Shown piece after piece: positions 1,257-63,883 of a stretch of DNA of 64,000 nucleotides; positions within the stretch are counted from its first letter, which is position 1; the number at the start of each line of letters is the position of its first letter. Under the pieces are notes generated by a model that did not search any database, was not told the DNA's origin, and worked only from the letters and a program-made list of their open reading frames with translations. This stretch comes from Branchiostoma lanceolatum (lineage: Eukaryota; Chordata; Leptocardii; Amphioxiformes; Branchiostomatidae): positions 33,049,193-33,113,192 of the forward strand of contig NC_089723.1 in assembly GCF_035083965.1 (NCBI RefSeq), written 5' to 3'. A program made the translations under genes and the position numbers.

Positions 1257-1268
1257 GACGTCACGTGA
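1257..1268. promoter_or_regulatory. Overlapping CRE and E-box
   Basis: A full cAMP-response element (TGACGTCA) overlaps a palindromic E-box (TCACGTGA), just after an AACATGGCGG start-like context. This is typical of a promoter for a widely expressed gene, bound by CREB/ATF and USF-type factors. I cannot attach it confidently to a gene; the exon-like stretch at 743-907 on the minus strand is one candidate. Confidence 0.4.
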
Positions 1269-2096: not shown

Positions 2097-2099
2097 AGC

Positions 2100-4020: not shown

Positions 4021-4039
4021 AAAACTTTATCGTTGTTGC

Positions 4040-4109
4040 TGACGTCACTATCATCGACGTCATCCTTCTGGGAGTCTTTTGAAGAAACCGGGAGTCTCGG
4101 GTATAAAAG
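4040..4109 (+). promoter_or_regulatory. Prohormone A promoter: two CREs and a TATA box
   Basis: A perfect CRE (TGACGTCA, 4040-4047) is followed by a near-perfect one (CGACGTCA, 4055-4062) and then a canonical TATA box (TATAAAAG, 4102-4109). The start codon is about 90 bases downstream of the TATA box, so transcription probably starts near 4135. CRE plus TATA is the classic layout of cAMP-inducible neuropeptide genes such as somatostatin. The motifs are seen; the regulation is inferred. Confidence 0.75.
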
Positions 4110-4198
4110 TGGTGCGTTTTCTCCACTTGCCAGTAGCTGAGATTCAGGACGACCGAGCAGACGACTTGTGAGACGGAGCGAGAGACCAGACTTGAAGA

Positions 4199-5107
4199 AT
4201 GCGCACCACAGCAACTTTGCCGCTCTTTCTGGTGTTCCTCCTCACTTTGTGGAAGAATGTCAGCAGCAGACCAGGTATGTAATATTGAGATGCTCACTTT
4301 TTAGTCAAATAAAATCTTAAGCGGCCATGAGGTCCCGCTAACGTATTACTAGTTTCAAACGGTTGCACCCGACCTCGTAGAACAAGTGTAAAGACAAATC
4401 TAACTTTGAAAAGTCACAACTTGTACATTTCTTCACTTTCTGAATAGTTCTGTCAACTTCTTGATGAGTCTTGAACTCTTAGTGTTCTAAGTACACATAC
4501 CGATATCATGAGAAGGTACATGTACTTACTCTTTCTTTTCTTTTCTTTTTCTTCAGCAAAAGTCAAGATGTACGATCTGCTGTATGAAGACGGCCCGTTG
4601 TGGGAAGCTGCTGAGGCGACATTTCCAGATTACGGCTCCGGTTCGGCTGAGGTAGATTCCAACTTCGACCTCGTGGGTGAAGCAAAGAACGACGAGAGCA
4701 GCTTCGACCTCTTGGAGAGCGACGACATTGAGGCCGCTGATCGACGTCGTAGAGTGCGGCGGTCCCTTCTGGGGAGGTACAAGTCGCACTGCCGCCGCCG
4801 CCATGGCACCAACGGACAGGAAGACCGCTTTCAACAGGCGGATGAAGCAAAAGCCAGCCCGGAGCAGGCGAGGAGAAAAGCCCGAGCGCCAGCCGGGGTC
4901 TACAACAACGGAGGCTATCCCGTGGTCGTGCAAACAAAGCGGAACACCAAATGCAGGAGCCGCTGGTGCAGCATGGCGTACTTCCTGAAGAAGGTGAAGG
5001 CGTACGGATTCTGGAAGAAGAACCGCGGACAGACCAAGCGTCGCGCCGACTCACGACAAAATAACATGGACTTTATCGACTGGAATACTCTAGAGGCAAT
5101 GCCCTAG
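4199..5107 (+). CDS. Secreted preproprotein A, candidate peptide hormone
   Basis: Two coding exons, 4199-4274 and 4557-5107, joined by a phase-1 intron (donor GTATGT; acceptor after a long pyrimidine tract ending TTCAG), giving 208 residues. Exon 1 is a signal peptide: M-R-T-T start, a Leu/Phe-rich core, and an end at V-S-S-R-P. The N-terminal half of the proprotein is acidic (SNFDLVGEA, SSFDLLESDD) and ends at a polybasic site, R-R-R-R-V-R-R, residues 88-94, a furin-type cleavage signal. The C-terminal part is very basic with Cys at 104, 158 and 163. The last two sit in a motif with W162, Y167-F-L and Y175-G-F-W178 that the paralogue at 23.6-24.6 kb shares. Further dibasic sites (TKR, TKRR) flank the motif. 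A likely poly(A) signal is ATTAAA at 6036. I do not recognise the family; function as a secreted ligand is inferred from architecture and promoter. Confidence 0.8.
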
Positions 5108-5724
5108 AGGTTCCTACTAAGTTAGTGGTACTGATGACTTTGACTTGCAGGACTGGAAAGCTATCATTTTGTCAGACTAGTTCAAATTTTACTCGGTTTG
5201 TTGTGCCGTGAGTATTGACGCCATTTAATTTTTGTTCTTCACTCATTTCTATTTGTCGACTTCCTACCTAAATTCAAAAGTATGGGGTATAGAAGTTCCT
5301 TGCTACAGTGTTGGTATCAACACAGATAACGGTTTATCCTTGCGCATTAGTCACTATCGACAAAGCTTAAAGTTTCTGTGGATTCTATTCTTTCAAACAT
5401 CCAAACAGAAACGCTGCAATACATTCTCAATCCACCTGCTCAATCCTACGATCGGTATTCAGTTCTGAACCTTCTCTAGAGAATGTTGTTCATTTTAAAG
5501 AAGACCGAACTATGTAAGCCCTCATTTTGGGCTGTCCATTATTCTACAGAGGCTAAAAATGTACCGTAAATTATCAACTTTTTGATGTTATAGTTGACAT
5601 TCCACTCAGGTAACTATGATAAGCTATATTTTACAATCGACGTAGGCCTTCACTTTTGTAAACCAACGTTGAAGTTGAAACGGTTGCTTTGAATGGTGCA
5701 GAGTATTATAGATTGGCGTATTTG

Positions 5725-5937
5725 TACTCTCCAGGTAGAGGAGTGGGTCCGGCTGGTTTTTGAGGTGTGTTTAGGCGTTTTTGTCGGGCTTTTTAATTTT
5801 TTTATTTCTTTTCATTTCTTTCGTCTGTGTGGGTTAACCGGCTACAGAGACACAAAAATGACAAAGTAGAAAGTCCGACAAAAACGCCTAAAAACACGTC
5901 AAAAACCAGCCGGACCCACTCCTTTGCTTGGAGAGTA
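5725..5937. mobile_element. Palindromic MITE, TACTCTCC family, copy 1
   Basis: Ends are TACTCTCC and GGAGAGTA. Long inverted arms include GTGGGTCCGGCTGG and GGCGTTTTTGTCGG. Three further copies lie at 17937, 37947 and 38763. It has no open frame. It falls within the probable 3' untranslated region of prohormone A. Confidence 0.8.
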
Positions 5938-6380
5938 GTGTATTTGTATATATGCTAAAGAGACGACAAGACTGCTGGCAGTCTGATTTTTATTTACATT
6001 TGTATTTATTGACAATGTCTATTGTTTACTTGAACATTAAAGCGTGAAATATCATCAACATATGTCATGTTTTGCTTGGGCTACTTTGGCTAGTAAACAG
6101 TAATGATAAGATAACGTTTGTGTAAGCTGTGGTATACCGGTAAGATTTTGCAAGTTCAGAATGGAATTTAAGCTTGCCAGTGAGAGATAGTTTTAAACGC
6201 AATTCAGGAAAGAGTGATAAGCATTGCGATAAACTCAAATTTAAGGGTCCCTTTGTTCCGCCCGCCTGGATCAACTAGTACAAATACGAAATAATTTAAC
6301 TTAGGACCGCATACAGTCTGCCGAGCTGTAGCCACCCCCTTATTGAATGAGCAGCCAGGATAGCTCAGGATGGCTCTCAC

Positions 6381-6410
6381 CAAGGAGGTTAAATGTATTT
6401 AACCTCCTTG
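6381..6410. mobile_element. 30-bp perfect foldback with 7-bp target duplication
   Basis: Fourteen bases (CAAGGAGGTTAAAT) and their exact inverse flank a central GT. The palindrome is bracketed by the direct repeat CTCTCAC (6374-6380 and 6411-6417), which looks like a target-site duplication. The arms resemble the AACCTCCTT ends of the larger element at 15714-16171, so this may be a relic reduced to its two ends. Confidence 0.6.
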
Positions 6411-6544
6411 CTCTCACTAAACGATAACTTACCTAGCCGAGAGACCATGCTTACCACAGAAGCGGTATAATGTAAGCAAGTGAACAGCCTAAGTGACGGT
6501 GAGTCAGCAACTACCGAGGTGCCAGGCTACCGCCAGCCCATTTG

Positions 6545-6772
6545 GCCTCCTTTACAGGGCTTCTAGGCGCGCCGGCGTTTATTTTTAGAGGGGAGCGCTG
6601 ATTCGTGATTTTCAACGTACTTCATTTTTTGGCAAGTTCTCACGGTGCTTATGCTGGGGAGATCTTAAACGTGTTTTATTCTACTTTATCTTTTCTAGTC
6701 TTGGGGCAGAAACGATCTCACCAGCACTAAGTCAGTGGCCCATATGTTAAAAATCGCAAATCATCGCTCCCC
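6545..6772. repeat. Degenerate foldback element, related to 15714-16171
   Basis: It begins CCTCCTTTACAGGGCTTCT and holds GGGGAGCGCTGATTCGTG, with an imperfect inverse near 6744-6772. The 15.7-16.2 kb element contains the same blocks (TTTATTTTT, GGGAGCGCTGATT, ATTTTCAAC). Confidence 0.5.
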
Positions 6773-6776
6773 CTAA

Positions 6777-6969
6777 TGCTTCGGTCCCATTTCCAATCCG
6801 GGGCCCGGCCGAGCTGTTTGCGAAAACAAAAAATGAAAAATGTATCCCAAGAAAATAAACAATATATGTTTAGGGGTAATTATTGTGTCCTTTGTTGTCT
6901 TTTATATCATGTTTTACGTTCCCACAAGCTGCCCGGCCGGGCCCCGGATTGGAAATGGGGCCGAAGCAT
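6777..6969. mobile_element. Palindromic MITE with GC-rich ends
   Basis: Terminal inverted repeats read TGCTTCGGTCCCATTTCC on the left, with an imperfect inverse on the right (GGAAATGGGGCCGAAGCA), followed inwards by CGGGGCCCGGCC. The centre is AT-rich. A diverged second copy follows at 7021-7203. Confidence 0.7.
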
Positions 6970-7020
6970 AAATCTAAACGCTTGTGACGCCCAGAAGGCC
7001 TGCAAAGGACGCTAGGTCAA

Positions 7021-7203
7021 AATTCCCAACCCGGGGCCCGGCCGGGCAGTTTACGGGAACGAAAAGTATGATATAAAAGACAACAAAACGCAACAAAGTT
7101 GCAAAAATCAAACATGAGTACCATTTTTGTATAGTCTTGGTATGATTTGTTTCATTTTCGTTGACACAAACAGCCCGGCCGAGCCCTGGTTTGGAAATGC
7201 GAC
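7021..7203. mobile_element. Diverged copy of the 6777-6969 MITE
   Basis: It carries the same GC-rich inverted ends (CCCGGGGCCCGGCCGGGCAG on the left, CAGCCCGGCCGAGCCCTGG on the right) around an AT-rich centre. It lies about 160 bases upstream of the CCT3 start codon, so it may overlap the CCT3 promoter. Confidence 0.6.
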
Positions 7204-7359
7204 CTTAGCATATACGTACGGTAGAATAGTTGCAGCCTCCCATATATGATCCGTCTGGCTCTTTGATACTACTTACCGCAGGGGGTTCTGGGTGTTACAA
7301 GATTGGACTGACTGCGCATGAACGAACAGTAGCTGTGAATACCCAAGAAAACCGGCAAA

Positions 7360-10300
7360 ATGATGGGTCAAGGCGGTCCAGTTTTGGTTCTCAGTAAGTA
7401 TTTCAAACCTTATTCCATCATCCAAACGTTGCTTTCCGTTCATAAGGAGTTGTTCTACAATGTTCTCTTGTCTGTTATTTCACAGAGCAGAACACAAAGC
7501 GAGAATCGGGGCGGAAAGTCCAGCTCGGAAATGTGAAAGCAGCAAAGGTAAGGCTGTCATCCCGCAAGCACATGGTCTCCATGACTGCACATTTTCACAC
7601 TTCAAAAAATACATCTTATCGTCAAAATTTTAAATAATTACCCCAACGACGTATAGATTATGTTACTGCAGTGTAATAGAAGCAAGCAGAAGTGATTAGA
7701 TTACTGAAATGGGTTGACAGCGGAAAGAATAATCTAGAAGTCTCTAGAACGTTCTGCCCCCCTCCCCTTCATCAGATTCTGCTGTGTGCACTGTATCGTG
7801 TTTGAAATACCTTAAAGTTTCCCCTCAGAATTACGGGTGCTATAGCTGTACGGTGCTTTTATTCACTATGTAGATTAAATGTAAACGAAGTACACTGTCA
7901 CACGTTTTTTTTACTGTTACAAAATTTGTGTAAGAAAGAAAACTAGGTCAGCAGAAAAAATGCATACTTTTCTTTGTTTAGTATATATTTTGTGTCAGGT
8001 CTGAATCAAAAGTGTATTACAATTTACTAATGATGAAATGTGTGCTGTTTTGCGCAGATGATCTCGGACGTGATCCGGACGTGTCTCGGACCTCGCTCCA
8101 TGATGAAGATGTTGATGGACCCGATGGGCGGTATCGTCATGACAAATGACGGAAACGCCATCCTCAGAGAGGTAATGTCGCAACGCCGATGATAAGGGTT
8201 ATATGAACAGCATGGTCAGACTTAAGGAAACATTCTCTCACAGACTTTGAACTTGTTAGGTATTCAGGTTTGGTGGGTTTTCTTCCAGTGGAGATCTCGA
8301 TGATGAATGCTTGCGTCTTAGAATTGTGCTTTGTCGATAGCTAAGCCTAATAGGGCAAAGTCGCTTTGCAATTGTGTTTATATAGCCTAACACACTTATG
8401 CTAACTGGAGATAGAGAGAGATCTCATTAACCCTGGCCTCAGCTTTACCATTTCACCAGAATGCTCAATGCCATATTAGGTCAACAGACAGTCCTACTGG
8501 TATTTTCTTTTCTTGGATGCAATGTAGAATAAAACATGGATTGTGATTGCCACAGATCCAGGTACAGCACCCTGCTGCCAAGTCCATGATCGAGATCAGC
8601 CGTACCCAGGATGAGGAAGTGGGCGATGGAACTACGTCAGTCATCATCTTGGGTAGGTTCTCAACCAACTTGAACAGTTGGATTTCGCTGAGATTTAATC
8701 TTTAGCGCTCTGAAGTAGCCGTTTGGCACCCAATTCCCTATTGGTTACAGAGTTAGGCAGCAAGGAGAAGGTTGATTAAAGATTTGCCTTTGAGAAAACT
8801 GTGGAAAAGACTAGTGTGAATTTTCCAACGAGCTTTAAAAATCTTTTGAAAATGCTGAGGCAATTCTGATCTTGAAAGTCAAGGTTGTAAGTAAAAGATT
8901 TCATTCTGATTTTGTCTGTCATTTATTTGCATGCATTGACTTTTATTTGATTGTATTACAAAATAAAAGGAATAGAAAATGTAACATCACATAACTATAA
9001 TTATAAGGCTTCTTTGGACAAGTCAACATAGTTATAATATTCAAGATATCTCACAGTCAGACATAGGCATCTACCTGGCTTGTTTGCAAGGGCCGGACAC
9101 AAATGTATAGTCCGCATGTGTAAGTAACCAATGACCCATGGGAAGAGTGTTGAGTTACAGAAAAACAAAATTGATGTGCTCACAAAGACGTTTTTATTTG
9201 CTTGACAATTTCACCACTACAATGACAGGAATATTGAACTATTGGGTATGAATGATGGCCTCACATCATTGCTGGCATTTGCTACAGTCGTCTAGGATAC
9301 AGTGAATGGTATGAAAAGTAAGAAAACATGTTCAGGAATATTGAATGCATTGTTTGCCTGTTGTTGATTATAGCTGGAGAGATGCTGTCGGTCGCTGAGC
9401 CTTTCCTGGAGCAGCAGATGCACCCCACACAGATCATCAGTGCCTACAGACAAGCACTGGAGGACAGCCTGGATGTACTGAGGGACCAGATTAGGTAGGA
9501 GGAAAAGGAATTTTGTATAGTGTTGATAAAGTTTGTGTGGAAAAAATTACAAAAATTTGAAGAACTGTATGGAATAGAAATGTTAAATTTTATGCGGGAA
9601 CACTGGGGACTGTTTTTTACTTATGTTATTTCATTTGTTTAGATATTGCTTCAGCCTTAACAGCACAAAGCAGATGTTTGTAAGAATATAATACAACTGC
9701 TGCAGAAAATAGAGCTTCCTGCTGCCTAACCTAGAAACCAATAGAGAATTGAAAGCCAAATGGCTACTACAGTGCGCTACAGGGTGAAGATTCAATATCA
9801 AGATATTAGATGGTAACCAAATTCTGTTTTTTCCTGTCCTAGTGTTCCAGTTGATGTGTCTAACGAGGATGAAATGGTGAAGATTATCTGCAGTGCCCTG
9901 GGCACAAAGTTCATTCGTAAGTGGATGGCCCTGGCCTGCAAGATGGCCCTCCAGTCCGTTAAGACGGTCGCTCTAGACGACCAGGGGCGACGGGAGATCG
10001 ACATCAAGAGATACGCAAAGGTGGAAAAGGTAAGGAGGGGCATTTTTCTGGCATCCATATCATTCTGAACTTCTGCAATTTGCAAGCAATGGCTGTTATA
10101 CATGTTGCATTCATGTAGATAGCGATTGACCAAAATAAGACTTGATTTTATGATTGGACTATGATGCAGTTGCACAATGAAAAAGTATTATTCAAATGAG
10201 ATCAAAGCATCAAAAATGTAAAAACGTTTCTTTTCTATCAATGAAATTCATTGAGCGACCTTGTCAAATGTTTGGTTCCAGCTTGTAGTGGAACTGGCAT

Positions 10301-13300
10301 GTTAGCAACAACAGAGAATGAAGACATTTTTTGGCAAAACAATGGTGTCCACTATTCACATTGGGAACATAAAGTGGTCACATATTTTTGCCTTTGCTGG
10401 ACCATGTCCCTGCTTTTACTCAAAGTTTGCTGTTCCTCTCACAGATCCCAGGGGGAGCCATCGAGGACTCCCAAGTTCTGAGCGGCATCATGATCAACAA
10501 GGACGTCACCCATCCCAAGATGCGGAGACGCATCGAGAACCCGCGTATCGTCCTCCTGGACTGCTCACTCGAGTACAAGAAGGGGGAGAGTCAGACAGAC
10601 ATTGAGCTGGTTAGCGAGCAGGACTTTAGGTGGGTACAGACTTGATCAGGGATCCATCTTGTCCAAAACATGATACAGTGAAATAATTCTTCCAATGGAC
10701 ACAAGCATTAAGAATCCAGGTTTTGTAGGTCCCGAGTGGTCTTGTTTGGTAGCTTTGACTCTCTTTGATATTTGATCAAGATATTTCTCAAATGAGTGAA
10801 AGACTGTCTTAATTGCAAATATGCAACATGTGCTAGTAGCATACCCTGGGGCCATGCAGAGAGTCTGCATAGACTTTTACGTTTCTCATAAACCCTTGTG
10901 CCTTTGCAGTCGTATGCTGCAGTTGGAAGAGGAGTACATTCAGAAGATCTGTGAAGACATCATCCGAGTGAAGCCCGACATTGTGTTCACGGAGAAGGGG
11001 GTTTCAGGTAAGGCATGTTTATTGTCGTATAAAGGAACATCTGTGCATTGATTAGACAGGGAGGCATGTATATTGTTGTAATGGTACAAAGAAACATCCA
11101 TGCATTGATCAGAAATCAAAATATATGGTGAGAGGCTGACAATGGTATGAATTTTTTTCTGGGATTTTTCTTCTGTAATGTAAAGAAATTACATTGTCAC
11201 ACTATGAAATTCTCATATTGTATTCTGCAGATCTTGCCCAACATTACCTTGTGAAGAACAACATCACCGCCATCCGCCGCATCCGTAAGACGGACAACAA
11301 CCGTATTGCAAGGTAAGATTAGAGAGCTGACAGTTTCTTTTAACTTCAAACGAGGATATTTTAGAATGCTGTTGTGAATACTGAAAATATGACATTTCCT
11401 TGCCATTTGTCATATGTAGTAGCAGGAGACTTCAAGCATGGTGAAAATTCCTCTGTGTTAGACACAAAATTGGACTTACCCACATTTTCAGCTGTCCAAC
11501 CCCAGTCTGGTCAAGGAATGAGTAATCCACTGCTTCTGCGATGTCTCGTTATGTATATAGAACATGACTCACTGCCCACCGAGTCACACGTTTATCTGTA
11601 TATTGAGCCGTCACGTAAGGTGTGGATTGCTCATTCCTCGACAAAGACTGTATTTGGACAGCTGAAATTTTGGGTAGAAATTGCAGTTCAACTTTGCTTC
11701 TGCACAGTGAAAATTTGGAAAATCCATGTACCAATGTTAGACTTGTGATGTAACCTGCACCTGTCCTCCCCCAGGGCCTGTGGAGCCAACATTTTGAACC
11801 GCACCGATGAGCTGAGGGAAGATGACGTTGGAACAGGAGCTGGCCTGTTTGAGATTAAGAAGTTCGGGGATGAATATTTCACCTTCATTACTGAGTGCAA
11901 GGATCCAAAGGTGAGTTTTTTACCTTCGCCAAAAAGGTTATGATTTTCAGGTCTCTGTGTGTGAACAAGATAACTCTAAAATGCCTTGATATTTGGTATG
12001 TTAGTAGATCTTGATGACACCTCAAAATGATTACATTCTGGGGCCTCTAGCGGCTTATGCTACTGCAGTGGAACTTACGGTATTGATAGCTCATGTTCTG
12101 GACAAGCTATGGTCTACTATTTTAAGTAGATATCTCTTTGAAGAGTTTTGAAGGTTGGGGCCCACCAGCGGCTTTTTGAAACTGCAGGGGCCGATTTAGT
12201 TTTCGACTTTGTTTCTGACCTCCGACAAAAATAACTCGAGGAAGGGACATTTCATGTATATTTACTTCAAAAAGGATTTGAATGTGGTACATTTTAGGTT
12301 AACAGCATCATTTCCTGTTATTGATAATGATGAATACATCTTTGATCTGTCCCCCAGGCGTGCACCATCTTGTTGCGAGGAGCGTCCAAGGACGTGCTGA
12401 ACGAGGCGGAGCGTAACCTGCAGGACGCCATGCAGGTCGCGCGCAACGTCATGCTGGACCCGCGACTCGTACCTGGCGGCGGCGCAGCGGAGATGGCGCT
12501 CGCACACGTGAGACGCTTTACTCGTCATCTTTGAATCAAATCAAAAGTGCCTTCTGTTTCTTACAGTTAACACTGGTCAACATCCCTGTCCTCACCACTC
12601 TATACTTCGTACAAGGCTTCCTGTACGGTATCCAGGGGATGTTGATGAAAAATGAAGCCATTTCAACTTCATACCTTTGTTTATGGGAAAATGATCAGAA
12701 GCCAACAGACGGTATGAGTTTATTATTTATCCATTCATTTGGTTCAGCATGTAGTTACATGCCAGGGTTGCCCAACTAGCAAGAGGCTATGAGTTGCTAC
12801 TGAATGATGAACCAGCTTTTTACTCATACATGTAGTCTCTGTCCTTACCTCTATGATCTGTTTAGTATGTTTAACTATAACCTCTCTCCTTGCAGATTCT
12901 GAACGAGAAAGCCAAGTCCATCCAGGGTGTCCAGCAGAAGCCGTACATGGCAGTGGCCAAGGCTTTGGAGGTGGTGCCCATTACACTCATCCAGAACTGT
13001 GGCGGCAACACCATCAGAACACTCACACAGCTCAGGGTATGTCTCAACACAACATGTGTACAAGTACTGGTAGTGTGATACACCATCAAGGCGCATAGGT
13101 GGTCTCAATCTAATTTGTATTCATAATCAATCCATTATGTAGACAGGTCCCTGAGTATCCCTGCTTGGAAATTTCACAAACAGCATGTATCTAATAATTC
13201 AATTCTTTTTTTTAAAGAAATTGGTTATGCTAAAGAACTTAATAGTCGATTGTTATGTATGTTTATGAATTCTTGCCATCCTTTGTACCATGTACAATTT

Positions 13301-14279
13301 TCGTGCAATAAAGTTCTTCTAATTCTTCTTATGGTCATTTTGTTACCCTCCCCTTAAAGGCCAAGCATGCCACAGCAGGTAATAAGAGCTGGGGGATCAA
13401 CGGTGAGACGGGCAACATCCAGGACATGGAAGAACTGGGCATCTGGGAACCGTACGCTGTCAAGGCACAGGTCTACAAAACTGCTGTCGAGGTAAGGAAA
13501 ACCGTCTGTTACACTCCGTCTCTAGTAGAGCCTGCAACTGCTGAGCGACCAAACATGTGATAGATTGATCAACAAATTTTTATCTCCATGAAAAATGGAG
13601 ATATTGTTTTGGGTGTGTATGTCTGTTTGTCTGTTTGTGTTTCCGCACCACTCCAGTCAGCATTACTCAAGAGCCTCTTGATGGATTACAATGATATTTG
13701 GTATGTGGATGGGTGTTGTGAAACCGAAATTCAAGGTCGATTTTGGGCCCCCTGGTATGTGACCTTGGTACTGCAGCAGAACTTCAATTTTTGTATCTTT
13801 TGACCTGGACGTGCTGTGGTCTTGTTGATAAAGAACAAATCTTGTTATGTTTCGTATGTCTTCTTTTGAGAAAAAAGTGCCATGCTTCATCCTCAGTCTG
13901 AGGTTGGCTGCTTTACCTTGTCTTTTAAATCATTCTTTTACGTCGTGTCTCATTCCAATTATAAAACCAAGGATAGCTCAAATCCAATTTTGGTAGCTCA
14001 GTGATTGCCATCTAGTGGAAAGGGGGTCTAACTACTTTGTTGTTCTTGATTTAATTGAGTGATATCTTCACCTTGTACATGGCTTTGGTCTCACATAAAG
14101 TCCAATATTGAGGAGTTGTACATTTTTACTACTTCAATGTTTTATACTATGCAAAAAGAATCTTGTTAATTTGTTGTTTTCCTTTTTTTTCACAGACCGC
14201 AATTTTGCTCCTCCGAATTGACGACATTGTCTCGGGTTCCAAAAAGCAAGCAGGCGCTGACCCAATGAAACCTGAATGA
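7360..14279 (+). CDS. CCT3: T-complex protein 1 subunit gamma (CCT3)
   Basis: This is a subunit of the cytosolic TRiC/CCT chaperonin, which folds actin, tubulin and other proteins using ATP. I assign 14 coding exons, all with GT/AG junctions and a consistent frame: 7360-7393, 7486-7547, 8058-8171, 8556-8652, 9374-9494, 9843-10029, 10445-10629, 10910-11007, 11231-11312, 11775-11910, 12358-12507, 12896-13036, 13360-13491, 14196-14279. The product is 540 residues, close to the 545 of the human protein. It starts [11 protein letters not shown] like the family. The ATP-site motif V-G-D-G-T-T-S is at about 92-98 and V-P-G-G-G at about 410-414. D-L-A-Q-H-Y, C-K-D-P-K and G-I-W-E-P are also present. 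No frame break. It converges with the PAQR gene. A poly(A) signal lies at 15000. Confidence 0.97.
11935..12200. repeat. Intronic repeat in CCT3
   Basis: This CCT3 intron holds a stretch of the type TTCGCCAAAAAGGTTATG ... GATATTTGGTATGT. Its 'ATTTGGTATGT' core also occurs in the intron at 13.68 kb, which suggests related dispersed repeats. Boundaries are approximate. Confidence 0.35.
13570..13910. repeat. Intronic dispersed repeat in CCT3
   Basis: This intron segment begins TTTTTATCTCCATGAAAAAT and contains the inverse pair CTCCATGAAAAATGGAG. A 71-codon open frame across it is not conserved with any family I know. The shape (short hairpin, then GTCTGTTTGTCTG, then ATATTTGGTATG) looks like a high-copy non-coding repeat. 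Boundaries are approximate. Confidence 0.4.
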
Positions 14280-14999
14280 TGACCAGCGGAGCTTTAATCT
14301 TAAACTGAATTTCAATTTGCACTAGGTAGTATTGAAAATATGAATGATATGCTCTAAAATGGATAGCAAAAAAAAGTTGACCTGATTTTGGTGACTCATC
14401 CACTTCTCCAATGAAGATGCCAGATTACTGTTGGGGTCCACAGATGTCTTTTAACGTGTCACAACTATACTGGTGCCGTCTCCAAAATGTCACCAATGTG
14501 GTACACAACACCATTTATCCTGTGTGCACAGGTATTGTCTACCTATACATTTTGTAAGTTTGCTACTCATATGCAAAGACATAATGTCTACAACATCTGT
14601 ACTTCATTATTGGTCTGTAGAGTTTCTTTAAGAATAGATCTGTTTGCATGATTATTATAAATTGTTGTGTTTTCTGAGTGTATTTCCTTTGAGGTATAAG
14701 TTCCAGGTGGTTGATGTGTTGAAAGAGTACAACAAACGTTTACTGTGGGCCAAACTGATATGAAATCGTCATACATGTATTGGTAAAGAGATTACATAGG
14801 AGTTTGTTGCCTTTGTGTTTATTTCTGATACATTTTTGTACTTTGTGTCTGACATCATTGTCACTATTTACTACAGTGGAGGGATAGAAAATCTCTATTC
14901 CTTTGAAAGAGTGGACACTTTAACTTGCAAAATTGTATCCAGAAATGTTCAGATTTAGGGAAGAATCCCCTTGCACACCCTGCAGAGCACTATGGTACC

Positions 15000-15005
15000 A
15001 ATAAA
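15000..15005 (+). terminator. CCT3 poly(A) signal
   Basis: AATAAA lies about 720 bases after the CCT3 stop codon, followed by a T-rich stretch (GTCTTTTGTATTATATATTG) that fits a downstream element. Confidence 0.6.
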
Positions 15006-15505
15006 GTACAGAAACTTCAACAACAGTCTTTTGTATTATATATTGCTTTTATTATTACAGTATTATTGTTATGGAGGTTTGAATTTTGAGGTAGCCAGAA
15101 GAATATCATAGCCCCGTGTACCTGGTATATCACAGCTCTTCAACTATGAGGGTAACCAACTACCAGCAACAGAAGACTTAATTGTTATATGATATTTAAT
15201 CTTGAAGCCAGAAGACTATCACAGCCCTGCACTTCCTCGATACCTCGTATACATGTATCTCTTAAAAGCAGCACTTCAACTAGTGTGAGGGTAACCAACT
15301 AACAGAGAAGACTAGACCTGAGCAAGGCTATTGTAAAATACAAAAGCAAGTCAGTACTTGGTACCTACCTTTGTTTTCCAACATCATCCATGTGAAATAG
15401 TGATTGTAATCAAAGCATTGTGAATTTTAGTGCCTTAACATAAGGTCATTGATGCTCACTTGTGTTGCTGTTATGTTCATGTTCCTACAGACAGCTTCAT
15501 TTTTG

Positions 15506-15575
15506 TAATCTTTAAGCAGATCCTAGGGCGGCAGGTGATACTGTGCCCTGCCACCGTAGGATCTGCTTGAAGATT
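15506..15575. mobile_element. 70-bp mini-MITE, AATCTCCAAGCAGAT family
   Basis: It starts TAATCTTTAAGCAGATCCTA and ends with the near-inverse TAGGATCTGCTTGAAGATT. Its ends match those of the 179-bp element at 21798-21976, with a half copy at about 44755. Confidence 0.65.
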
Positions 15576-15713
15576 TTGGCAATTATCTATGATACCATAT
15601 CCTAAGTAGAAATGTTGGAATGAAAGTTTGAAAGCACCATGCATAACTGACTGTAGGTCTGTTCAAAATGACACCTAACTAGAGTTCAATCAATAAACCA
15701 GTCATAACCAGTA

Positions 15714-16171
15714 ACCTCCTTCGCAGACTTCTAAGAGCGCCAGTGTTTATTTTTCTTGGGAGCGCTGATTTGCAATTTTCAACATGGGCCAGATTCTCTT
15801 AACGCCGGGTAGACAGTTTTGCCACTAATCATTAGAGAACCTGGCCCATGTTGAAAATTGCGAATCGCCTCTCCCCAAAAAAGAAACACTGGTGGTATTA
15901 CTAGTATTAGCAGCCCTCCAGACTGGGACCATCTTATGAGATTTATATATTTTAGAATCCATCGAAATACATTATTTCAGGTTGTTAACATTGATTGATA
16001 GGAGTGTTTCTTAGTGTGTCCACGAGACTTGCTTGTGCCCCCAATTTTTTTATTGTGTTGCGTCTAAATTTTTGCTGGTGCGCCAAATTTTTGGGGGGTT
16101 GTGAGCAGTGTGCTCCTAGGTCAAAAAGTTAGTCTGGAGCCCTGGCTCTTAGACGTCTGTAAAGGAGGTTG
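15714..16171. mobile_element. Foldback element with AACCTCCTT ends
   Basis: The left end AACCTCCTTCGCAGACTTCT is mirrored on the right by AGACGTCTGTAAAGGAGGTT. Internal arms ATTTTCAACATGGGCC and GGCCCATGTTGAAAAT form a second inverted pair. No coding capacity. It lies between the 3' ends of CCT3 and the PAQR gene and stops just short of the PAQR stop codon. Confidence 0.7.
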
Positions 16172-16188
16172 CCTAACTTAAGGTGTTG

Positions 16189-19100
16189 CTATCTAACGTG
16201 GCAGGGGTGTGTCCTCCTCACATCTGCAAACTCCCAGCATGCATTGTGCCAGCAGTACAGGGCATAGATGTACAGGCAATGCCACAACTGGTGACTTTGT
16301 CCGACGTAATCAAACTTTCCTGCAAGAAACATGAAAATGTGTATTTGTTAAAAATACTAACTCTATTTTCTATTTACATGTGCATCATATACTTAAATGT
16401 CAATATTCAAAACATCTGCAGACACTGCAAGAAACATAAAAATTTGCGTTTGTTGAAAGATTTTTTCAGTATCTACAGACACAGACCACTAGAACAAATT
16501 TCCCATATTTTTCATAACTTCATGCTGCAATTAGGAAGTGTTATAACGTTACATACTGCAGAACATTCAGGCTGATACAAATGTACAAATCACATTGCCT
16601 TACCTGGCCAAAACCTCTCCGGAAACTTGACGGTGTAGGTTGCCAACATGAATGGAAATAGGACCATATAGGTGGACAACCACTTGTTCCAAACAACCTA
16701 CAGAGGAATATAGGCACATGAAAAGTGTCATTGACCCATTCCTGTACAAGTCAAATTATGACATATCTACATTACAACATGATATTTAACAAAAGTAGCC
16801 ATGATGGTAAAAGTGAAGCCACAGTCATAATTTCAGAGACACGACATTGTTGGCTATTGTTACCGTGGTAAGACTGTTGGTAAACCCAGGATCCAGAACC
16901 AGCCAGACATGGAGTAAGGCGAGGGCCGGCGCCAGGTGCAAGAGTGCGGCCTGGAATAGTCTGAAGGGATGAGACTTCATTCCGCGCGCTGTGCAGAAAA
17001 GGAGCACCACAACGAGCACAGCTAGGCCGGACAGATACAGCCTAGCGTAACCCTGAAAAAGACGACAAAAAGGTTTCAAATATTTTTTGACCCACTTTAC
17101 ACGTCAGATGGTTACCAAAAGAACGCCCCAGCTTAGCTGAGGCAGAAACTCACACAAACACTCGATACGTTTTTCTGCTTTCCTAGCGGAGACGTCAAAC
17201 AACCGGTACCCATTTCTGCGCCTGACCGCCCTTCTCTTGTTCTGTCGCTGCCATCAGTTTTGGAATTTTTCTGTGCTAAGTACTCGGCTGAGTGACATAC
17301 GCTACTCACCTGATAACAGTACAACCCGTAGGCGAACACAGGAACAACGGTGCCTCCTCCCGCTACCCACACGCCCAGGATGTCCGCCACGTTAGCTAGC
17401 CGCGCCGCTCTCTCACTCCGATGGTTGATGAAGAGGTGCCAGGCAGCGGAACTAAGGCAGCATGGCTGGGGAAACACGGGACAGGTTGTTAGTAGGGCAG
17501 TAATTGATTCTGTTGACTGGCAGTTATTGATTATACTGACTGACTGTAGCAGTATTGATTGTGCGTATTGATTTCGTAATGACAGAAGGGGAGAAGGTTT
17601 TTTCAATAAAATCCGAGAAAGGGATTAAAGGAAAGACTGATATTCTCATACTTACTAAACAAGACACAAGGACACAGGCGTGGACGAAGAAGTCGAAGGA
17701 ATCCTGGCGCTCACGTGCGAGAACGACGCCTACCAGGTGACCCAGAAAATACACCGCCGCCAGAAACGACGTCCAGAAATTCAGTGTCTCGTTCGTCCAA
17801 CGGAAGGGACTGTAAAAGTACATCGTTCGTTTGTTTGTTTGATCATATACATGTTTTTATCAATTATCAATATTTCAGAAGAGCAAGTTTGTTGGATTTG
17901 CGCAGCCACACAAATATTCGCCAATCAGTCATTGAGTACTCTCCAAGCAGAGGAGTGGGTCCGGTTCGTTTTTGGTGTGTTTTTAGCTATAGGCGTTTTT
18001 GTCGGGCTTTTTACTTTGTCCTGAGAGACAAAAAAACACGACAAAGTAGAAAGCCCGAGAAAAAAGCACAAAAACACGTCAAAAACCAGCCAGACCCACT
18101 CCTCTGCTTGGAGAGTATCCTTGGCTTGAGTCTCTTTCAATGTTATTCATCGCCTACCCACGTACACTCCTCACACACATAAACACATTGGCGCTATTCT
18201 TGCTCAGTCTGATAGTTAATTTTTATGAGAGTACGACATTAGGGAATATTTACGTTGTGAAACACTGTGTCGTCGACAAGTTGTACATGTAGCCGTTGCG
18301 GATGAAGGGTGAACACCAGCCGTTCGCTGTCCTCCACCTCGGCAACTCCCGGAGACTACAGCCAACCACGCCTTCACAACAAACAACACGGGGCGTTAGC
18401 AGTAGCTGCAGGTCAAGTCAAGTCAAATCAAATCAAAGTTTATTGCACAACTATTGTAACAGGTACAATGTAAGGCAAAATACTACTTGCTACTTATATC
18501 AATCTAGTACAAACTACAGGAAGTTTCTAGGCTATACAATGTTCTAGTACAAACTGCAAGTTGACCACCATAATCTGCTTCTTTTGCATGTATTTTTGTT
18601 GCATTTTAGATGCATCTTTACCAGCACCAGTAACGTTAGTTACCCTTCGACCAGTGGAAAAATGCACCTGTAAAAAGGCGTTCAACTTGAAGGAAACTAA
18701 CTTGAACACATGAAGTAAAGCCACATATCTGCTTGGATGATAAAAAACTATCTACGACCATATTTCTGAGCAAAGAAATCCGTAAACAAACAAAAAACTT
18801 CGGCCACTCAAGTATTACAAGTAGTTTATGCTAATCAATGACGCCCTAGAACAGTTCGCTGAAGAACAACGTCCGTATGCAAATTCGGAAAACCCGACGT
18901 CATTCATGCCGAGGCATGACGTAGTCCAAACCGCATGCCGTCCATGCTACGCATTCTTGCGTCAAGGGTTATTCGTAGGTTGACCCCAAACACAGAGCAG
19001 ACCTCAAAGGTCGGGTTGGGGTCCCAGAAAGGTCATTCCGTCTCAGCTATTCATGTTAAGGTTAACGTGTTTCCGCTTCTTTTGACTTGCCAAGTCATCG

Positions 19101-19371
19101 AGCTATGTCTATCCCCAGTTAGTTATTCAATCATATTGACCAAATGTCGGCACGCTAACATGATTTACCAATTTCTAACCCATCGAGAGTGCATAGGATA
19201 CGTAAACGGTAAAGCTGGACCAGAAATTGAGAAGTGCACTGTCAGTGTATCATTATGTCTAAACTCACCAGAACACTCGATACGTTGTTCTGCTTCCCTG
19301 GCGGAGACGTCAGGCAACCGGTACCCATTTCTGTGCCTGGCCGGGCCTTTTTCATGTTCTGTCGCTGCCAT
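16189..19371 (-). CDS. Progestin and adipoQ receptor (PAQR5/6-like)
   Basis: Seven-helix membrane protein of the PAQR family, which includes the membrane progestin receptors. Seven minus-strand exons splice in frame to 314 residues: 19269-19371, 18254-18371, 17656-17809, 17310-17465, 16864-17052, 16604-16697, 16189-16319. Family hallmarks are visible: G-Y then T-N-E-T-L-N-F-W at 79-86; a first helix rich in Leu and Val; S131-x3-H135 and D153; P-E-R-F-W-P-G at 266-272; and K-F-D-Y-V-G-Q-S-H-Q-L-W-H ending at H285. S131, H135, D153, H281 and H285 correspond to the conserved metal-site residues of PAQRs. The T-N-E-T form and the F-D-Y-V-G-x-S-H-Q-L block are closest to the PAQR5/6/9 group. Exons 3-7 are firm. 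Exons 1 and 2 rest on frame, splice sites and length. Exon 1 (start M-A-A-T-E-H-E-K-G) is hydrophilic, and a decayed copy lies in an intron at 17147-17266. Confidence 0.87.
17147..17266 (-). pseudogene. Decayed duplicate of PAQR exon 1
   Basis: About 120 bases inside the intron between PAQR exons 4 and 5 align with exon 1 and its flanks at 19260-19386: the start codon (minus strand, 17254), the ATGGCAGCGACAGAACA opening, GAAATGGGTACCGGTTG, GACGTCTCCGC and AACGTATCGAGTGTT are all shared. The copy is about two bases shorter in the middle, which shifts the frame to an early stop, and its donor GTGAG is displaced. It is therefore a non-functional exon fossil. Confidence 0.75.
17937..18117. mobile_element. 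Palindromic MITE, TACTCTCC family, copy 2
   Basis: It starts TACTCTCCAAGCAGAGGAG and ends with the exact inverse CTCCTCTGCTTGGAGAGTA. It is inserted in the PAQR intron between exons 2 and 3. Confidence 0.85.
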
Positions 19372-19959
19372 ATCATCAGTTGTGGAAAGGCGGCTGTGCC
19401 AATTATAAGATATGCCAGTCACCAAAAGTCAAGTTCTCGTTTCTGTTGGTATATCTCTATAAAATTTGAGGTCGCAAAAGATTATCGGTAGTGGTTGATC
19501 AAATGAATGGCCGGCCACCTGCAACGGCCTCGAGGAATTCACGTGCTTGAGTTAGTTTTAATAGATTACCAATACTAAACACCGTGGCGGTTGCATCATT
19601 CTCACTTACTAGTCGATCAATTTCAGAAGACTTGAAATAGTGAAAACTCAATGAAGGTCTGTAGTACCAAAACCTCCTTGGTAGTACTGACTGTCATGAT
19701 AAGGTTACCGTCCGTTTGGTGCTGTCAGTCAGCTCACGGCGGGCTCTAAATAAACCACTACCGACCTAGGGGTCGAACTCTCCACCCGGTAGTAGTATCC
19801 ACTTCGGCGGTTTAGGAAATATGCAGGGTATTTGCAATGTACAACTCATCCAACGGCAATGAGAACCATTGAAAACATAAACGGAAGTAATTTCAAAGTG
19901 ATGCACGTCAGTCGAAAGTGATGGATACAACAACTTCGACAAAAAATACAAAAGATTTT

Positions 19960-20031
19960 AGGTTCTACCGAGATTTGAACTCGGATCGCAGGATTCAGAG
20001 TCCTGAGTGCTAACCATTACACCATAGAACC
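19960..20031 (-). tRNA. tRNA-Gln (anticodon CUG)
   Basis: The minus strand folds as a complete 72-nt cloverleaf without intron. The acceptor GGTTCTA pairs with TAGAACC, the D-arm holds TGTAATGGTTAGCAC (A box), the anticodon stem CAGGA/TCCTG encloses loop CTCTGAA with anticodon CTG (plus 19996-19998), and the T-arm has GAGTTCAAATCTC (B box). The discriminator base is T and CCA is not encoded, as expected for a nuclear gene. T-runs just downstream on the minus strand (19950-19953, 19941-19946) serve as Pol III terminators. It closely matches animal tRNA-Gln(CUG). Confidence 0.96.
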
Positions 20032-20039
20032 CGTTCATG

Positions 20040-21790
20040 TCGCTTACACATACATTTAGCTATACAAAGACTACTCCGACCTTTGAGCCGACAGGCAATA
20101 ACTGCAATCAAAGCACAGGTGCCTTGCACACAACTATAACTAGAGTTCGGAGTTCGCGTACCTCCACCAATTAGAAGCCACTGCCCTCGTTAGCCTATCA
20201 ACGGCCACGCATGACTGTTGTAAGACGTCCTTCAGAAACATGGGTTTCATTCTCAAGACTTTGAGACCAGTATAGCATTTCACGAATGGATCGGAATTCG
20301 GGCTGGTTTCACAAATATTCTTTCTTCTCTATTATTGTTTGTGAGCAAATATGCTTCGTCTTACATTTTGCGTTAGGACGTCTTGATACTTGAACACGAT
20401 CTACAGACTGATAATAAGATTAGAATAACCTTATAGTCAAAGTCACTCAATAATAATGAATAAGTTAGCAGTTTGTCTGTTCCTCATTTATAATGTAAGA
20501 GGTTAACAATATTTCCTTCTAATGGGCAGCCTAGATGTAGAAACTAACCATATCAAGACGATCAGTGGCTATATACAGTACTACCTTCTTGTCGAAATAT
20601 CATTTGTGGCAGTACAACATTTCAGTGGCAGAAATGCCGTCTTAAAAAAGGTTCAAAGAGCACTAGTGATAAAGTGTCATTCTTCGACGCACAACAAAAT
20701 TACAACATACAATACAAACGATTATTTGCGACAAAGTATGTTTCTGTAAGAGAAAGTTTCTCGTTGTTCAATTTCATTGACAGTTTCCAGTTATGTATTG
20801 TCAGTTTCTATCGATTATAGTTGCGTGTGACGTTTCATGATCTATTAAGCCATCTCTAAAAAAAAAAATTAAGCCATCTCTACGCCTAGGTAATTGTTAT
20901 TGGTATTCAATACATCATTGGTACTGTATACGTACGGCGTTCTTCCTAGCTATTTGCCTATATCATTTACTACAATCAACTGTGAAATATATTGGTATAT
21001 TTTTGTACATTGTCTGTGGTGACTCGTGCTATTTCACAAATTTGACTAGCATTTAAAAACGGTCCGTATTTTCTTTTGTTTATACCAGTAAGGTTTATAT
21101 GGTATTTCATGGCCTTGATAGTTGAAAGCAGCTAGTTACCGATATTTACATGTGAAGGAAAGACTGTTCAGTACGTGTTTGACCAGAGAACGACTTCGTG
21201 TTGACCTACTCATCGTTGCGTGTGTATCAGTGTTTTTCAAGTTTGCCCCAGGGCGATGGCCATGGAATGTGGGGTGGTGGGCGAAGTCCCTAAAACCAGG
21301 CATTCTCGTGTGTTTTCTAATAAGTCCAAGCTGTTTTCAGTCTACACATAACTTAGTAATGGAGTAAACATATGAGAGGACTTACCGGAAGGGTTGTGTC
21401 CAGGTATTTTTTCTTGTCCTACTTGTCAAAACAAACAAACAAACTGCTGTACAGGTGGCACAGTGAAGGTACCGGACCGGCTGTTGTATTATTGATGAAC
21501 CAGTGTTGAAAGGGATGTTCCATTTGCATTCTTTACGTATACCCAACGGGCCGATACTTTTAATAAAAACTGTACATATCATATATTCACTCTCTGTAAA
21601 AAGGGACACATAGAACTCGTGTTCAACAACGATTTTTTTTAAACCGACCTGTTAAAAAATTAAGTATCTTGAAACACAAATAACATCACTTTATTGTGAC
21701 ACCCCCTCCCGATGCTAATGGTACAACCCGGTTTTTCAACTCCGATCCGTGGATCAATAGCTTCCATGGTCAATTCTGAGCTTATAACGA
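20040..21790. other. Intergenic, no recognised gene
   Basis: AT-rich sequence with short, unconvincing open frames on both strands. I see no conserved domain or splice-supported exon. Confidence 0.5.
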
Positions 21791-21797
21791 ATGTGTG

Positions 21798-21976
21798 TAA
21801 TCTCCAAGCAGATCTACACGGTGCCAAAAATCGTATATGCTAGCCAAATAAGCTCCAGTTCAGTTACGTCTTGTAGCAGATCATACGGTGCCCGACTGGA
21901 GACTTATCCGGCTGACTGGAGCTTCTCTGGCTAGCATATATGAATTTTGGCACCGTGTAGATCTGCTTGGAGATTA
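21798..21976. mobile_element. 179-bp palindromic MITE, AATCTCCAAGCAGAT family
   Basis: Ends are TAATCTCCAAGCAGATCTAC and its exact inverse. The arms continue through CACGGTGCCAAAA and ATATGCTAGCC, with a partly duplicated centre (two GACTGGAG words). A 70-bp member is at 15506-15575. Confidence 0.8.
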
Positions 21977-21979
21977 GTA

Positions 21980-23220
21980 GATGTTCGACAGGTCGATTGA
22001 AGCTGAAGAGATGTTCAGTGGTATCGCTCCAGGCACCTGCCAATCTTGCTAGCTTGCCTTTTCAGTGAAGAAGTGAACATACTAGATGTTGTAGAAAATT
22101 TACTATTACTAAACTTACAGAAGCCATGAAAACAATCGCATGCCTGAATAGAACGTCCATGGTGACCAATCCACAACGTACCAAAGGAGGGATTTTCAGA
22201 TCGGTGTCTGGGGTTACTATCTCTGACATACAAAAGTTACGTTAGTCTATGCTGGGCGGTTACTTGATATAGTGCTGCAGGTGTAGTGATGCAGCACTGC
22301 ACCGTCGACGCGAGGGGATGGCAGAAAATGTATCCAGGACCCATTCTTCCTTCGACAAAAATGTTATTTTTGGACGGAAAAAATACTCTCCGTCCGTAAG
22401 TATCTGAAATTCATGACATAAAATTGGTGGAAATGTACTTTTCTTGGTTACATCCATTTTGCCATGTTGGTTTTCTTACTTCACGGTTTCCAACCTTCTT
22501 ACCCCCGTGAAATGTATAACGTTACATCTGGTTCAAGTGTTTGCTGCATCGTTTTAGGTTTGATTCAAAATGATAATTTGAATCTACTAAGTCCTAATAA
22601 CAATGACAATTAGACTGACCTTAACTTGAATTGACGCTCAAATTGTCGAAATAGGCATTATGATAATGATAACCTTTATTGTACATGTCTGTCCTTTATA
22701 GGTCACTGCATTTCTATAAACACAAACACAAGTACACAGATGCAAATACAGTTACCGTAAATATAACAAGGCTTAGTATAGTAATCTAACACATGGCCTC
22801 AGCTTCTTCTTGCTTTAAATAGAGTGTACCTATGGTGTAGTTGTATTCGTTTGTGAAAGTACTCGTACTCAGATACCCACAGGACTTCTTAGCGTTCGTG
22901 GACGTTAGAACACAGACTACTATGACCTACTATTTTCCGTTCAATCGTTGGACCTAAAAAGAGAAGGAGAGCGTCATTTGGGTGCACAAAGGATGCGTAA
23001 GTTTAGAAATCGAACAAAAGCGCCGTTTCTGACGAAGAGCTCAATGTGCTGTATCGCCGGGTATAGTACTACACGACAATGGCTGGTCGCCGACTGGAAC
23101 GGCACAATGAGGTGAATCATTTTCTTTTCAGTCCCGCTCCTTTCGTCTGACCTTTTTGCAAATCCCCAGAGGTAGTTAACGTTTCGTAGAAAAGGCGTCA
23201 TTCATACAATACAGCCGTGC
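21980..23220. other. Intergenic, no recognised gene
   Basis: No exon-like frame with splice context. Short open frames on both strands look random. Confidence 0.45.
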
Positions 23221-23224
23221 GCTG

Positions 23225-23389
23225 TGACGTCACAGTGGCGAACGCTTTTGACAAAGAAATGACGAGGCTTGCCCAGACCGTAAAAATGTCAAGTTTTGTG
23301 ACGACGGTGTGCAGACGTCATTCACTGCGGGGAGAATTCTCAGAAGAGCGATTAGATGGCGCCTCCTGTGGGCCTTCAGGACATAAAAG
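23225..23389 (+). promoter_or_regulatory. Prohormone B promoter: CREs and TATA-like box
   Basis: A perfect CRE (TGACGTCA, 23225-23232), a near-perfect CRE (AGACGTCA, 23313-23320) and a TATA-like CATAAAAG (23382-23389) precede the start codon at 23562. The element order matches the prohormone A promoter, although spacing is wider. The 5' untranslated region would be about 150 bases. Confidence 0.7.
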
Positions 23390-23561
23390 CCGGCCAGACG
23401 ACGGTCTCAGGCTCAGAACGCTTTTGCGACGACAGGAGAAACACGCAACTTCGCCTGCCCCATCAGCCTAGGATCCCGGAGAAGAAATTAGCCACAAGTT
23501 CAACGGAGCGACACACCGATTTGTTGGGCACCGATCACCTTTTCAAACTACGAAAGAAGGA

Positions 23562-24639
23562 ATGTCGACTCTCAGAATATACGCTGTAGTGACGGTGCTG
23601 TTCATCGTGCTGGAATGTGCATTTAGCAGACCCGGTAAGTTGATGAGTTCTTTTTGCCATTTTTAAAAGCTTTGCTGCACATACTCGTCAAGCAGAGGTT
23701 AGGTAGGCTACGGCTAGTTTTAACTGTCTTTCCATGCGTTTTTATAAGGCTTTCTATTTCTACAGATTTGTGTCTTGTCTGCAAGCTAAAAAGAAAACCT
23801 GACAAAAGAGAAATACTGATTAAAAACTCCAAGCTAGATTTTGTTGGTAATTGAAAAACGAAGGGAATTTAAAAGTCATTCCGTTCTACTTCGATTCTGC
23901 GATATGTTTTGTTGTGATAAGTGGTAGAACTAGACAGAAGGGGTAACGTTATACTAGAAATTGAATAGTTGTTTCATCAGTGGCCAAATAACGCATTATT
24001 CTAAAAAGTACTTCTAGAAATCTAAAAACTAATGCATATATAAACAATGTGCCAACTGAAAACTTACATTTCTCTTTCTTTCTTTCTTCCGTAGTAAGCG
24101 AAAGCTTGAGACACAGCAGGGAGACGGACAGTTTTGACCTACAAGAAGCTGTCCATGACCTCCAAGACCTAGATAGTCTACTAGGCGACGTCTACGCCGC
24201 CAAAGCGGGCATCTTGGAGAAGCTCAACACCGATGGGGAAACAGGCGACTCCAAAGTAAACGAGAACAGACTAGCAGACGCAAACGGCGGGAACGAAGGC
24301 CAGGAAGACCAGCGAAGTGCCGACGAAGTCATCCTACGGCGAGTCCGACGTCGCTCCCGTGTTCCCCGGCCAGTTCATCGCGGAAACAGGATGGCGTCGC
24401 GGCTCCTAGTCCCCTCACAGAGCTCGAGAACAACTCGTCCAAAACGCATGATGCCCAGGATCATGTCTCCACTATCGTCCAGAAACGTGGGGACCATACA
24501 TGACCGCGCGTTTACGAAAAGAAGGTTCAAGTCAACGTTAGGAAAGAAGTGTAAGTGGTGTGGGCTTAATTATTTCTTGCAGAAGATAAAAGTATACGGG
24601 GACTGGAATAGGAAGCAATCGCTCCATCGCTACGTTTAA
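23562..24639 (+). CDS. Secreted preproprotein B, paralogue of A
   Basis: Two coding exons, 23562-23634 and 24095-24639, joined by a phase-1 intron (donor GTAAGT; acceptor TTCCGTAG after a TTTC-rich tract), give 205 residues. Exon 1 is a signal peptide ending A-F-S-R-P, the same place as in A. The propeptide is acidic (DSFDLQEAVHDLQDLDSLL) and probably helical, and ends at a polybasic site R-R-V-R-R-R, residues 106-111. The C-terminal part is strongly basic, low in Cys, and ends in the shared motif: C177-K-W179-C180, Y184-F-L, K-I-K, Y192-G-D-W195. Only two Cys remain after the signal peptide, and they would form a tight CxxC loop, against a C-x4-C loop in A. The extra spacing and low identity elsewhere imply an old duplication. 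No known family is recognised; a ligand or antimicrobial-type basic peptide are both possible. Confidence 0.8.

Positions 24640-47723: not shown

Positions 47724-63883
<16,160 letters not shown>

Follow-up and report, generated by a model that had tools for sequence, protein, structure and literature searches.

Precursors of neuropeptides typically combine a signal peptide, an intron behind it, an acidic spacer, basic cleavage sites and a short conserved peptide, and work on hormone evolution commonly uses lancelets to represent the chordate ancestor. According to PMC5818035, most bilaterian neuropeptide systems are found in Branchiostoma floridae. In the bombesin/gastrin-releasing peptide (GRP) type, as defined in PMC12002301, a phase-1 intron interrupts the peptide-coding sequence. 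The lancelet antimicrobial precursor BjAMP1 has a 24-residue signal peptide, an anionic region, a dibasic site and a cationic C-terminus; in antimicrobial peptides generally, signal and pro-region tend to outdo the mature peptide in conservation, which is a tendency and no strict rule (both from PMC4683396). Here we describe two genes, A and B, in a 64,000-nucleotide stretch of the Branchiostoma lanceolatum genome (contig NC_089723.1, positions 33,049,193 to 33,113,192; hereafter the window). Judging from their sequences, they are probably a lancelet-restricted, tandem-duplicated pair of peptide-hormone or neuropeptide precursors. With bilaterian precursors of that class they have in common the signal peptide, the intron behind it, the acidic spacer, the basic sites and the short conserved peptide; they differ in having no amidation signal behind the peptide and no recognised family motif.

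Each gene consists of two coding exons (Table 1) separated by a phase-1 intron directly after the residues S-R-P, and the predicted products measure 208 residues for A and 205 for B. The original prediction had the coordinates, frames, splice sites and intron phase right, as well as this common plan: spliced gene A is identical over all 208 residues to a deposited, uncharacterized B. lanceolatum protein, P0001 (E 8e-138), and the junction of gene B (...SRPVSES) is present too in the database proteins P0005, P0006 and P0007. Position -3 of both start codons is a purine, an in-frame stop lies upstream of each, and in neither gene is there another ATG between the start and a point 25 bp past the TATA-like element. 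The signal peptides, judged from hydropathy and with a cleavage point set by eye, have the hydrophobic cores LPLFLVFLLTL (A) and IYAVVTVLFIV (B), of mean hydropathy 2.75 and 2.93. An acidic propeptide and a basic C-terminus had been claimed for both products, and the net charges agree: -13 over 64 residues followed by +17 over 114 in A, and -13 over 81 followed by +23 over 95 in B.

The two proteins match each other by BLASTP at E = 7e-8 in a single comparison. They were also compared part by part, by Smith-Waterman alignment (SW) with 5000 shuffles per part. The mature halves scored 87, against a shuffle maximum of 57, and none of the 5000 shuffles equalled this. No significant similarity was found between the signal peptides (2469/5000 shuffles as good), between the propeptides (1232/5000), or between the mature parts once the motif was removed (3241/5000). 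Significant similarity of A and B is restricted to the C-terminal motif, in line with the proposal of an old duplicate pair strongly diverged elsewhere. We call the genes duplicates because of this motif and of the identical gene plan.

Within the motif, W-C-x3-Y-F-L-x-K-x-K-x-Y-G-x-W is invariant in eight of eight lancelet sequences, namely gene B of the window and seven database proteins including P0001, and the polybasic R-V-R-R site, also noted originally, is kept in all eight. The short disulphide ring that had been guessed as well is putative, the cysteine preceding W-C being differently spaced, C-x4-C in A (CRSRWC) and C-x2-C in B (CKWC). The word S-F-D-L, proposed as a further shared trait, does occur in both window proteins, but was dropped as a family feature because it is carried by three of four A sequences and by one of four B sequences. 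Duplicate secreted-precursor genes whose most constrained shared part is the C-terminal motif were what had been predicted, and this is what was found.

The conservation pattern was studied at two scales, within species on pairs of B. lanceolatum versions, one pair per gene, and within the family on four sequences per gene. When the B. lanceolatum versions are compared, 11/66 positions of the acidic propeptide differ in A and 15/81 in B (together 26/147), versus 0/84 for motif plus tail (26+8+20 positions in A, 21+9 in B; Fisher p = 4e-6). Comparing the propeptide with everything from R-V-R-R onward (8/221) gives p = 1e-5. As for the other segments, differences number 0/25 (A) and 2/24 (B) in the signal peptide, 0/5 in R-V-R-R of either gene, 0/15 (A) and 0/19 (B) in the block that follows it, 7/46 (A) and 0/37 (B) in the linker, and 1/7 in the pre-motif stretch of B. 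Over four sequences each, 23/26 motif columns are invariant in A and 19/21 in B, with 41/66 and 29/81 for the propeptide and 25/46 and 15/39 for the linker. Divergence is concentrated in the propeptide, and the peptide is fixed.

Around the motif, K-R precedes it in all four A sequences. T-K-R-R does so in three of four B sequences, P0007 having Q-R-G-R instead, and G-K-K stands before C-K-W-C in all four. A dibasic site follows the motif region in three of four A sequences, P0004 having only KSR. Gene A has two more conserved segments: the block SLLGRYKSHCRRRHG directly after R-V-R-R, with 14/15 columns invariant and a third cysteine (SHCRRR), and the acidic C-terminal end DFIDWNTLEAMP (up to 5104), identical in 4/4 A sequences and absent from B. 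In the basic linker of P0007, the B orthologue of a hybrid assembly, the unit RPVHRG-x-RMA is duplicated internally, as a second peptide-like repeat.

Among 5.77 billion sequences searched at E <= 10, gene A matches four proteins, itself counted, and gene B three. The relatives of A are P0001 and Hypp1449 (B. lanceolatum), LOC118410082 (B. floridae) and LOC144914482 (B. floridae x belcheri); those of B are Hypp1451 (B. lanceolatum), LOC118409238 (B. floridae) and LOC144903163 (B. floridae x belcheri). The nearest database protein to gene B is Hypp1451, at 91% identity, the exact B allele being absent from the matches. The six relatives other than P0001 show 58-92% identity across 99-100% of the query and were deposited without a function. 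A joint A+B profile, the type of search suggested with the original prediction, drew 6577 candidates, of which seven passed; they are the same seven proteins, all from lancelets (B. lanceolatum, B. floridae and the one B. floridae x belcheri hybrid assembly). In the window itself, hmmsearch with three profiles on six-frame open stretches of at least 15 residues gave above-threshold matches to the A and B exons alone, and no third copy was seen.

No credible relative was found outside lancelets in Pfam, the PDB or the protein database, whose search depends on shared exact five-residue words, so that relatives sharing only the spaced motif could escape it. Pfam gave no match at E <= 10. The PDB gave none for gene A alone, and only noise for a longer profile (two RAP1 matches at E 3.8 and 4.9) and for a motif profile (one phosphatase match at E 1.3). 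Six protein or locus names and six motif words of 8-10 residues were all absent from the literature text searched, outside of which lie supplements, most subscription journals, and the survey published in 2013 by Mirabeau and Joly, which PMC5818035 cites. Within the reach of these searches no description of the family came to light, nor had it been recognised originally in vertebrates or insects; it is a new family belonging to a familiar class, and on present evidence it is lancelet-only. Orthologues of A and B are listed on contigs of equal size in each of three assemblies (38,510,819, 35,136,500 and 30,627,739 bases), hence presumably on the same chromosome. The duplication would then predate the split of these Branchiostoma species.

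Upstream of each gene is a perfect cyclic AMP (cAMP) response element (CRE), the palindrome TGACGTCA, with a second GACGTCA 16 bp (A) or 89 bp (B) past it, ahead of TATAAAA and CATAAAA respectively. The full palindrome occurs three times in the 64 kb (at 1256 and at the two places given in Table 1), for 0.95 expected from dinucleotides; GACGTCA occurs 11 times in the window. In a test devised post hoc, with the sites already seen, 42 of 200000 random placements of three sites hit the 400-bp upstream regions of A and B alike. CREs are common in neuropeptide gene promoters and are found in housekeeping promoters too. A bacterial-type promoter scan of 3900-4300 gave no match, this method being uninformative for an animal gene. 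The third perfect CRE stands within ACATGGCGGACACATGACGTCACGTGAC (1240-1275), which by eye resembles a YY1/ATF/USF housekeeping promoter; among the 17 ATG-started frames of at least 20 residues in 900-3000, none was convincing by eye as the gene behind it.

We favour signalling-peptide precursors because the two genes follow the same two-exon, phase-1 plan; because their similarity is significant in the candidate peptide region only, where R-V-R-R and the core residues are kept throughout; because the propeptide varies while motif and tail are fixed; and because no known domain appears in Pfam or the PDB. The position of two of three perfect CREs less than 400 bp ahead of the start codons of A and B, and the equal-size contigs of the orthologues, point the same way. 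On this model, the signal peptide would be removed before R-P, and furin would cleave at R-V-R-R, between acidic propeptide and basic part. Processing at other basic sites, in A at K-R before NTKCRSRWC and in B at T-K-R-R or G-K-K before CKWC, would yield a peptide some 20-40 residues long. It would have a short disulphide loop at its N-terminus (C-x4-C for A, C-x2-C for B) and contain the core W-C-x3-Y-F-L-x-K-[VI]-K-x-Y-G-x-W. Its target would be a receptor at the cell surface, most probably a G-protein-coupled receptor (GPCR), and the CREs beside the promoters may drive transcription. Gene structure, the match of spliced A to a deposited protein, homology, the conservation pattern and the presence of basic sites and CREs are observed directly; we infer from sequence the individual cleavages, the disulphide, secretion, the receptor and control by cAMP. 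Of the prohormone-like pair claimed originally, the duplicated secreted-precursor genes stand, while hormone status is a reading of the sequence.

Several observations weigh against such precursors. The peptide has no amidation signal behind it, the G-K-K of B preceding the motif. The basic sites near the motif are partly lost (KSR in P0004, Q-R-G-R in P0007), so that the ends of the peptide are ambiguous. The third cysteine and the acidic end of gene A are unexplained by a one-peptide model, and the linker of gene A is variable. As signal peptides are conserved too, and one pre-motif position of B changes, the motif is not alone in being constrained. Finally, the 500-bp upstream regions of A and B align no better than shuffles (46/300 as good), and a promoter shared beyond the CRE and TATA-like elements was rejected on this count.

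An amphipathic tail, which had been part of the initial guess, found no support. The helical hydrophobic moments lie within the shuffle range, both for the tails (A 0.042, with 93% of shuffles as large; B 0.193, 26%) and for the 12-residue cores (A 0.210, 31%; B 0.248, 22%), and the idea of an amphipathic helix was set aside as unsupported. AlphaFold, run on seven sequences with shallow alignments, predicted no folded domain (mean pLDDT, the predicted local distance difference test, 46 for A and 52 for P0005, which stood for B). It did place a helix over the motif (A 161-187; P0005 180-201), with block means of 51-61, a low-confidence prediction too weak to use.

Rather than signalling peptides, the genes could encode host-defence precursors, in which an anionic pro-region keeps a cationic, cysteine-containing C-terminal peptide inactive. 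The opposite charges of propeptides and C-terminal parts would suit this role. BjAMP1, according to PMC4683396, has the same plan, with its signal peptide, anionic region, basic site and cationic two-cysteine C-terminus, and the good conservation of signal peptides within species (0/25 and 2/24) is as that source expects. However, BjAMP1 has 97 residues versus 205-208 for A and B, and the peptides are without sequence similarity (mBjAMP1, SW p = 0.78 and 0.90). In A and B the pro-region is less conserved than the peptide (26/147 changes versus 0/84 in motif plus tail), the reverse of the antimicrobial tendency reported in PMC4683396. This excess of propeptide over peptide divergence speaks against antimicrobial peptides, as do helical moments no larger than those of shuffles, and we consider this alternative unlikely.

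Less likely still are growth-factor-like or matrix-binding secreted proteins, for which furin would cut at R-V-R-R and the whole basic part of 95-114 residues would be active, perhaps by binding heparin. Such proteins could account for an R-V-R-R kept in all eight sequences while the sites around the motif vary, for the strong basicity of the C-terminal part, and for the second conserved block of gene A, SLLGRYKSHCRRRHG, together with its conserved acidic end. Yet the mature part ahead of the motif is not common to A and B, the linkers diverge (25/46 and 15/39 invariant columns), and the models, within the limits of their shallow alignments, predict no folded domain.

Distant membership, beyond sequence recognition, of the endothelin/bombesin, calcitonin/adrenomedullin or osteocalcin families is very improbable: C-x3-Y-F ... 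W does recall endothelin, and A has PAQR and insulin/IGF-receptor-type genes nearby, but the defining features of these families fail, Pfam gave no match and the PDB no credible one, and 17 known hormone peptides run against A and B (34 pairwise tests) yielded a single p < 0.05, which is chance level. That single value belongs to orexin A (p = 0.007 versus A, 0.97 versus B), and none of the 17 was convincing. Endothelins have four cysteines, C-x-C-x7-C-x3-C before ...W, a pattern that fails here, the motif having two cysteines with spacing x4 or x2. Members of the calcitonin/CGRP/adrenomedullin family have a cysteine ring of six or seven residues and a C-terminal amide; A has C-x4-C but B has C-x2-C, and no amide signal follows the motif. 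In osteocalcin and matrix Gla protein, glutamates around the cysteines are carboxylated to Gla. PAQR6, BGLAP and INSRR lie near one another on human chromosome 1. Considered also for this position, the osteocalcin/matrix Gla family was rejected, as the conserved peptide of neither A nor B contains Glu; human osteocalcin gave SW p = 0.95 (A) and 0.60 (B). The Y-G-x-W of A and B recalls the lancelet GRP-like peptide DKGQEHWQYGHWY-NH2, which has it near the peptide end (PMC12002301); that peptide, unlike A and B, is amidated (SW p = 0.076 and 0.125). Under the definition in PMC12002301, the bombesin/GRP type does not fit: the intron of A and B comes after the signal peptide, with the motif deep in exon 2, and behind the final W stands KK (A) or NRK (B) instead of the GK or GR of a C-terminal amide signal.

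Signalling-peptide precursors being the preferred reading, a bolder version of it can be put forward tentatively, as a conjecture from sequence that we regard as doubtful. Under it, a peptide-receptor system of chordates that has gone unrecognised might have the W-C-x3-Y-F-L-x-K-x-K-x-Y-G-x-W peptides as its two ligands. They would have duplicated ahead of the Branchiostoma species split, be regulated by cAMP and pair with orphan lancelet GPCRs, and they would either have arisen in lancelets or have disappeared, or changed beyond recognition, in vertebrates. In any case, lancelet receptors without a ligand gain a concrete candidate in this conserved pair, to which no family is assigned, and the A and B peptides can be synthesised and put to a direct test. 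If truly lancelet-only, the family would be a peptide signal specific to one basal chordate lineage.

Table 1. Features of genes A and B, in window positions; base coordinates of the two conserved peptides were derived by hand from the exon coordinates.
Feature	Position	Strand	Remarks
Perfect CRE palindrome TGACGTCA, gene A	4040..4047		159 bp upstream of ATG A; further half-site GACGTCA at 4056
TATA box TATAAAA, gene A	4102..4108	+	
Gene A coding exon 1	4199..4274	+	predicted signal peptide MRTTATLPLFLVFLLTLWKNVSS + RP; phase-1 donor
Gene A intron	4275..4556	+	282 bp, GT-AG (GTATGT...TTCTTCAG), phase 1
Gene A coding exon 2	4557..5107	+	acidic propeptide, RRVRR, basic C-terminal part, acidic end DFIDWNTLEAMP, stop
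Gene A conserved peptide NTKCRSRWCSMAYFLKKVKAYGFWKK	4943..5020	+	residues 155-180
Gene A candidate poly(A) signal ATTAAA	6036..6041	+	
Perfect CRE palindrome TGACGTCA, gene B	23225..23232		337 bp upstream of ATG B; further half-site GACGTCA at 23314
TATA-like CATAAAA, gene B	23382..23388	+	CATAAAA occurs 10 times in window
Gene B coding exon 1	23562..23634	+	predicted signal peptide MSTLRIYAVVTVLFIVLECAFS + RP; phase-1 donor
Gene B intron	23635..24094	+	460 bp, GT-AG (GTAAGT...TTCCGTAG), phase 1
Gene B coding exon 2	24095..24639	+	acidic propeptide, RRVRR, basic C-terminal part, stop
Gene B conserved peptide KCKWCGLNYFLQKIKVYGDWN	24547..24609	+	residues 176-196
Gene B candidate poly(A) signal ATTAAA	25231..25236	+	other candidate AATAAA at 25409

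Neighbouring genes were sought with Pfam in 60 of the 321 stop-to-stop frames of at least 60 residues, picked by length and position. Between A and B, on the minus strand at about 16870-17860, is a multi-exon PAQR gene (HlyIII, PF03006), with one frame above the Pfam cut-off, one below, and an exon at 16.9-17.1 kb recognised by eye; its stretch TNETLNFWTSF, again by eye, recalls membrane progestin receptors. To the right of B, also on the minus strand, a gene for a tyrosine kinase of the insulin/IGF-1-receptor type extends over 47727-63920, its 5' end near or beyond the window edge. Furin-like, Recep_L and kinase domains exceed the Pfam cut-off from 63.9 to about 49.8 kb, with weaker kinase matches down to 47.7 kb (the last exon, 47.7-48.1 kb, is below cut-off) and a weak fn3. 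For one kinase frame, the insulin receptor is closest among the best 60 of 149 PDB matches (E 7.6e-17).

A repeat element with ends CCAGCCGGACCCACTCC...TTGGAGAGTA is present in four copies, 68-87% identical to the reference, at 5846-5937, 18026-18117, 38009-38100 and 38823-38914. The copy near gene A has, by eye, an inverted counterpart from about 5730, in the manner of a miniature inverted-repeat transposable element. Directly 3' of gene B is a 300-bp direct duplication (25198-25497 and 25776-26075, 96% identity), and a tandem duplication occupies 37487-39073, with offsets of 814-875 bp and blocks that are 88-97% identical.

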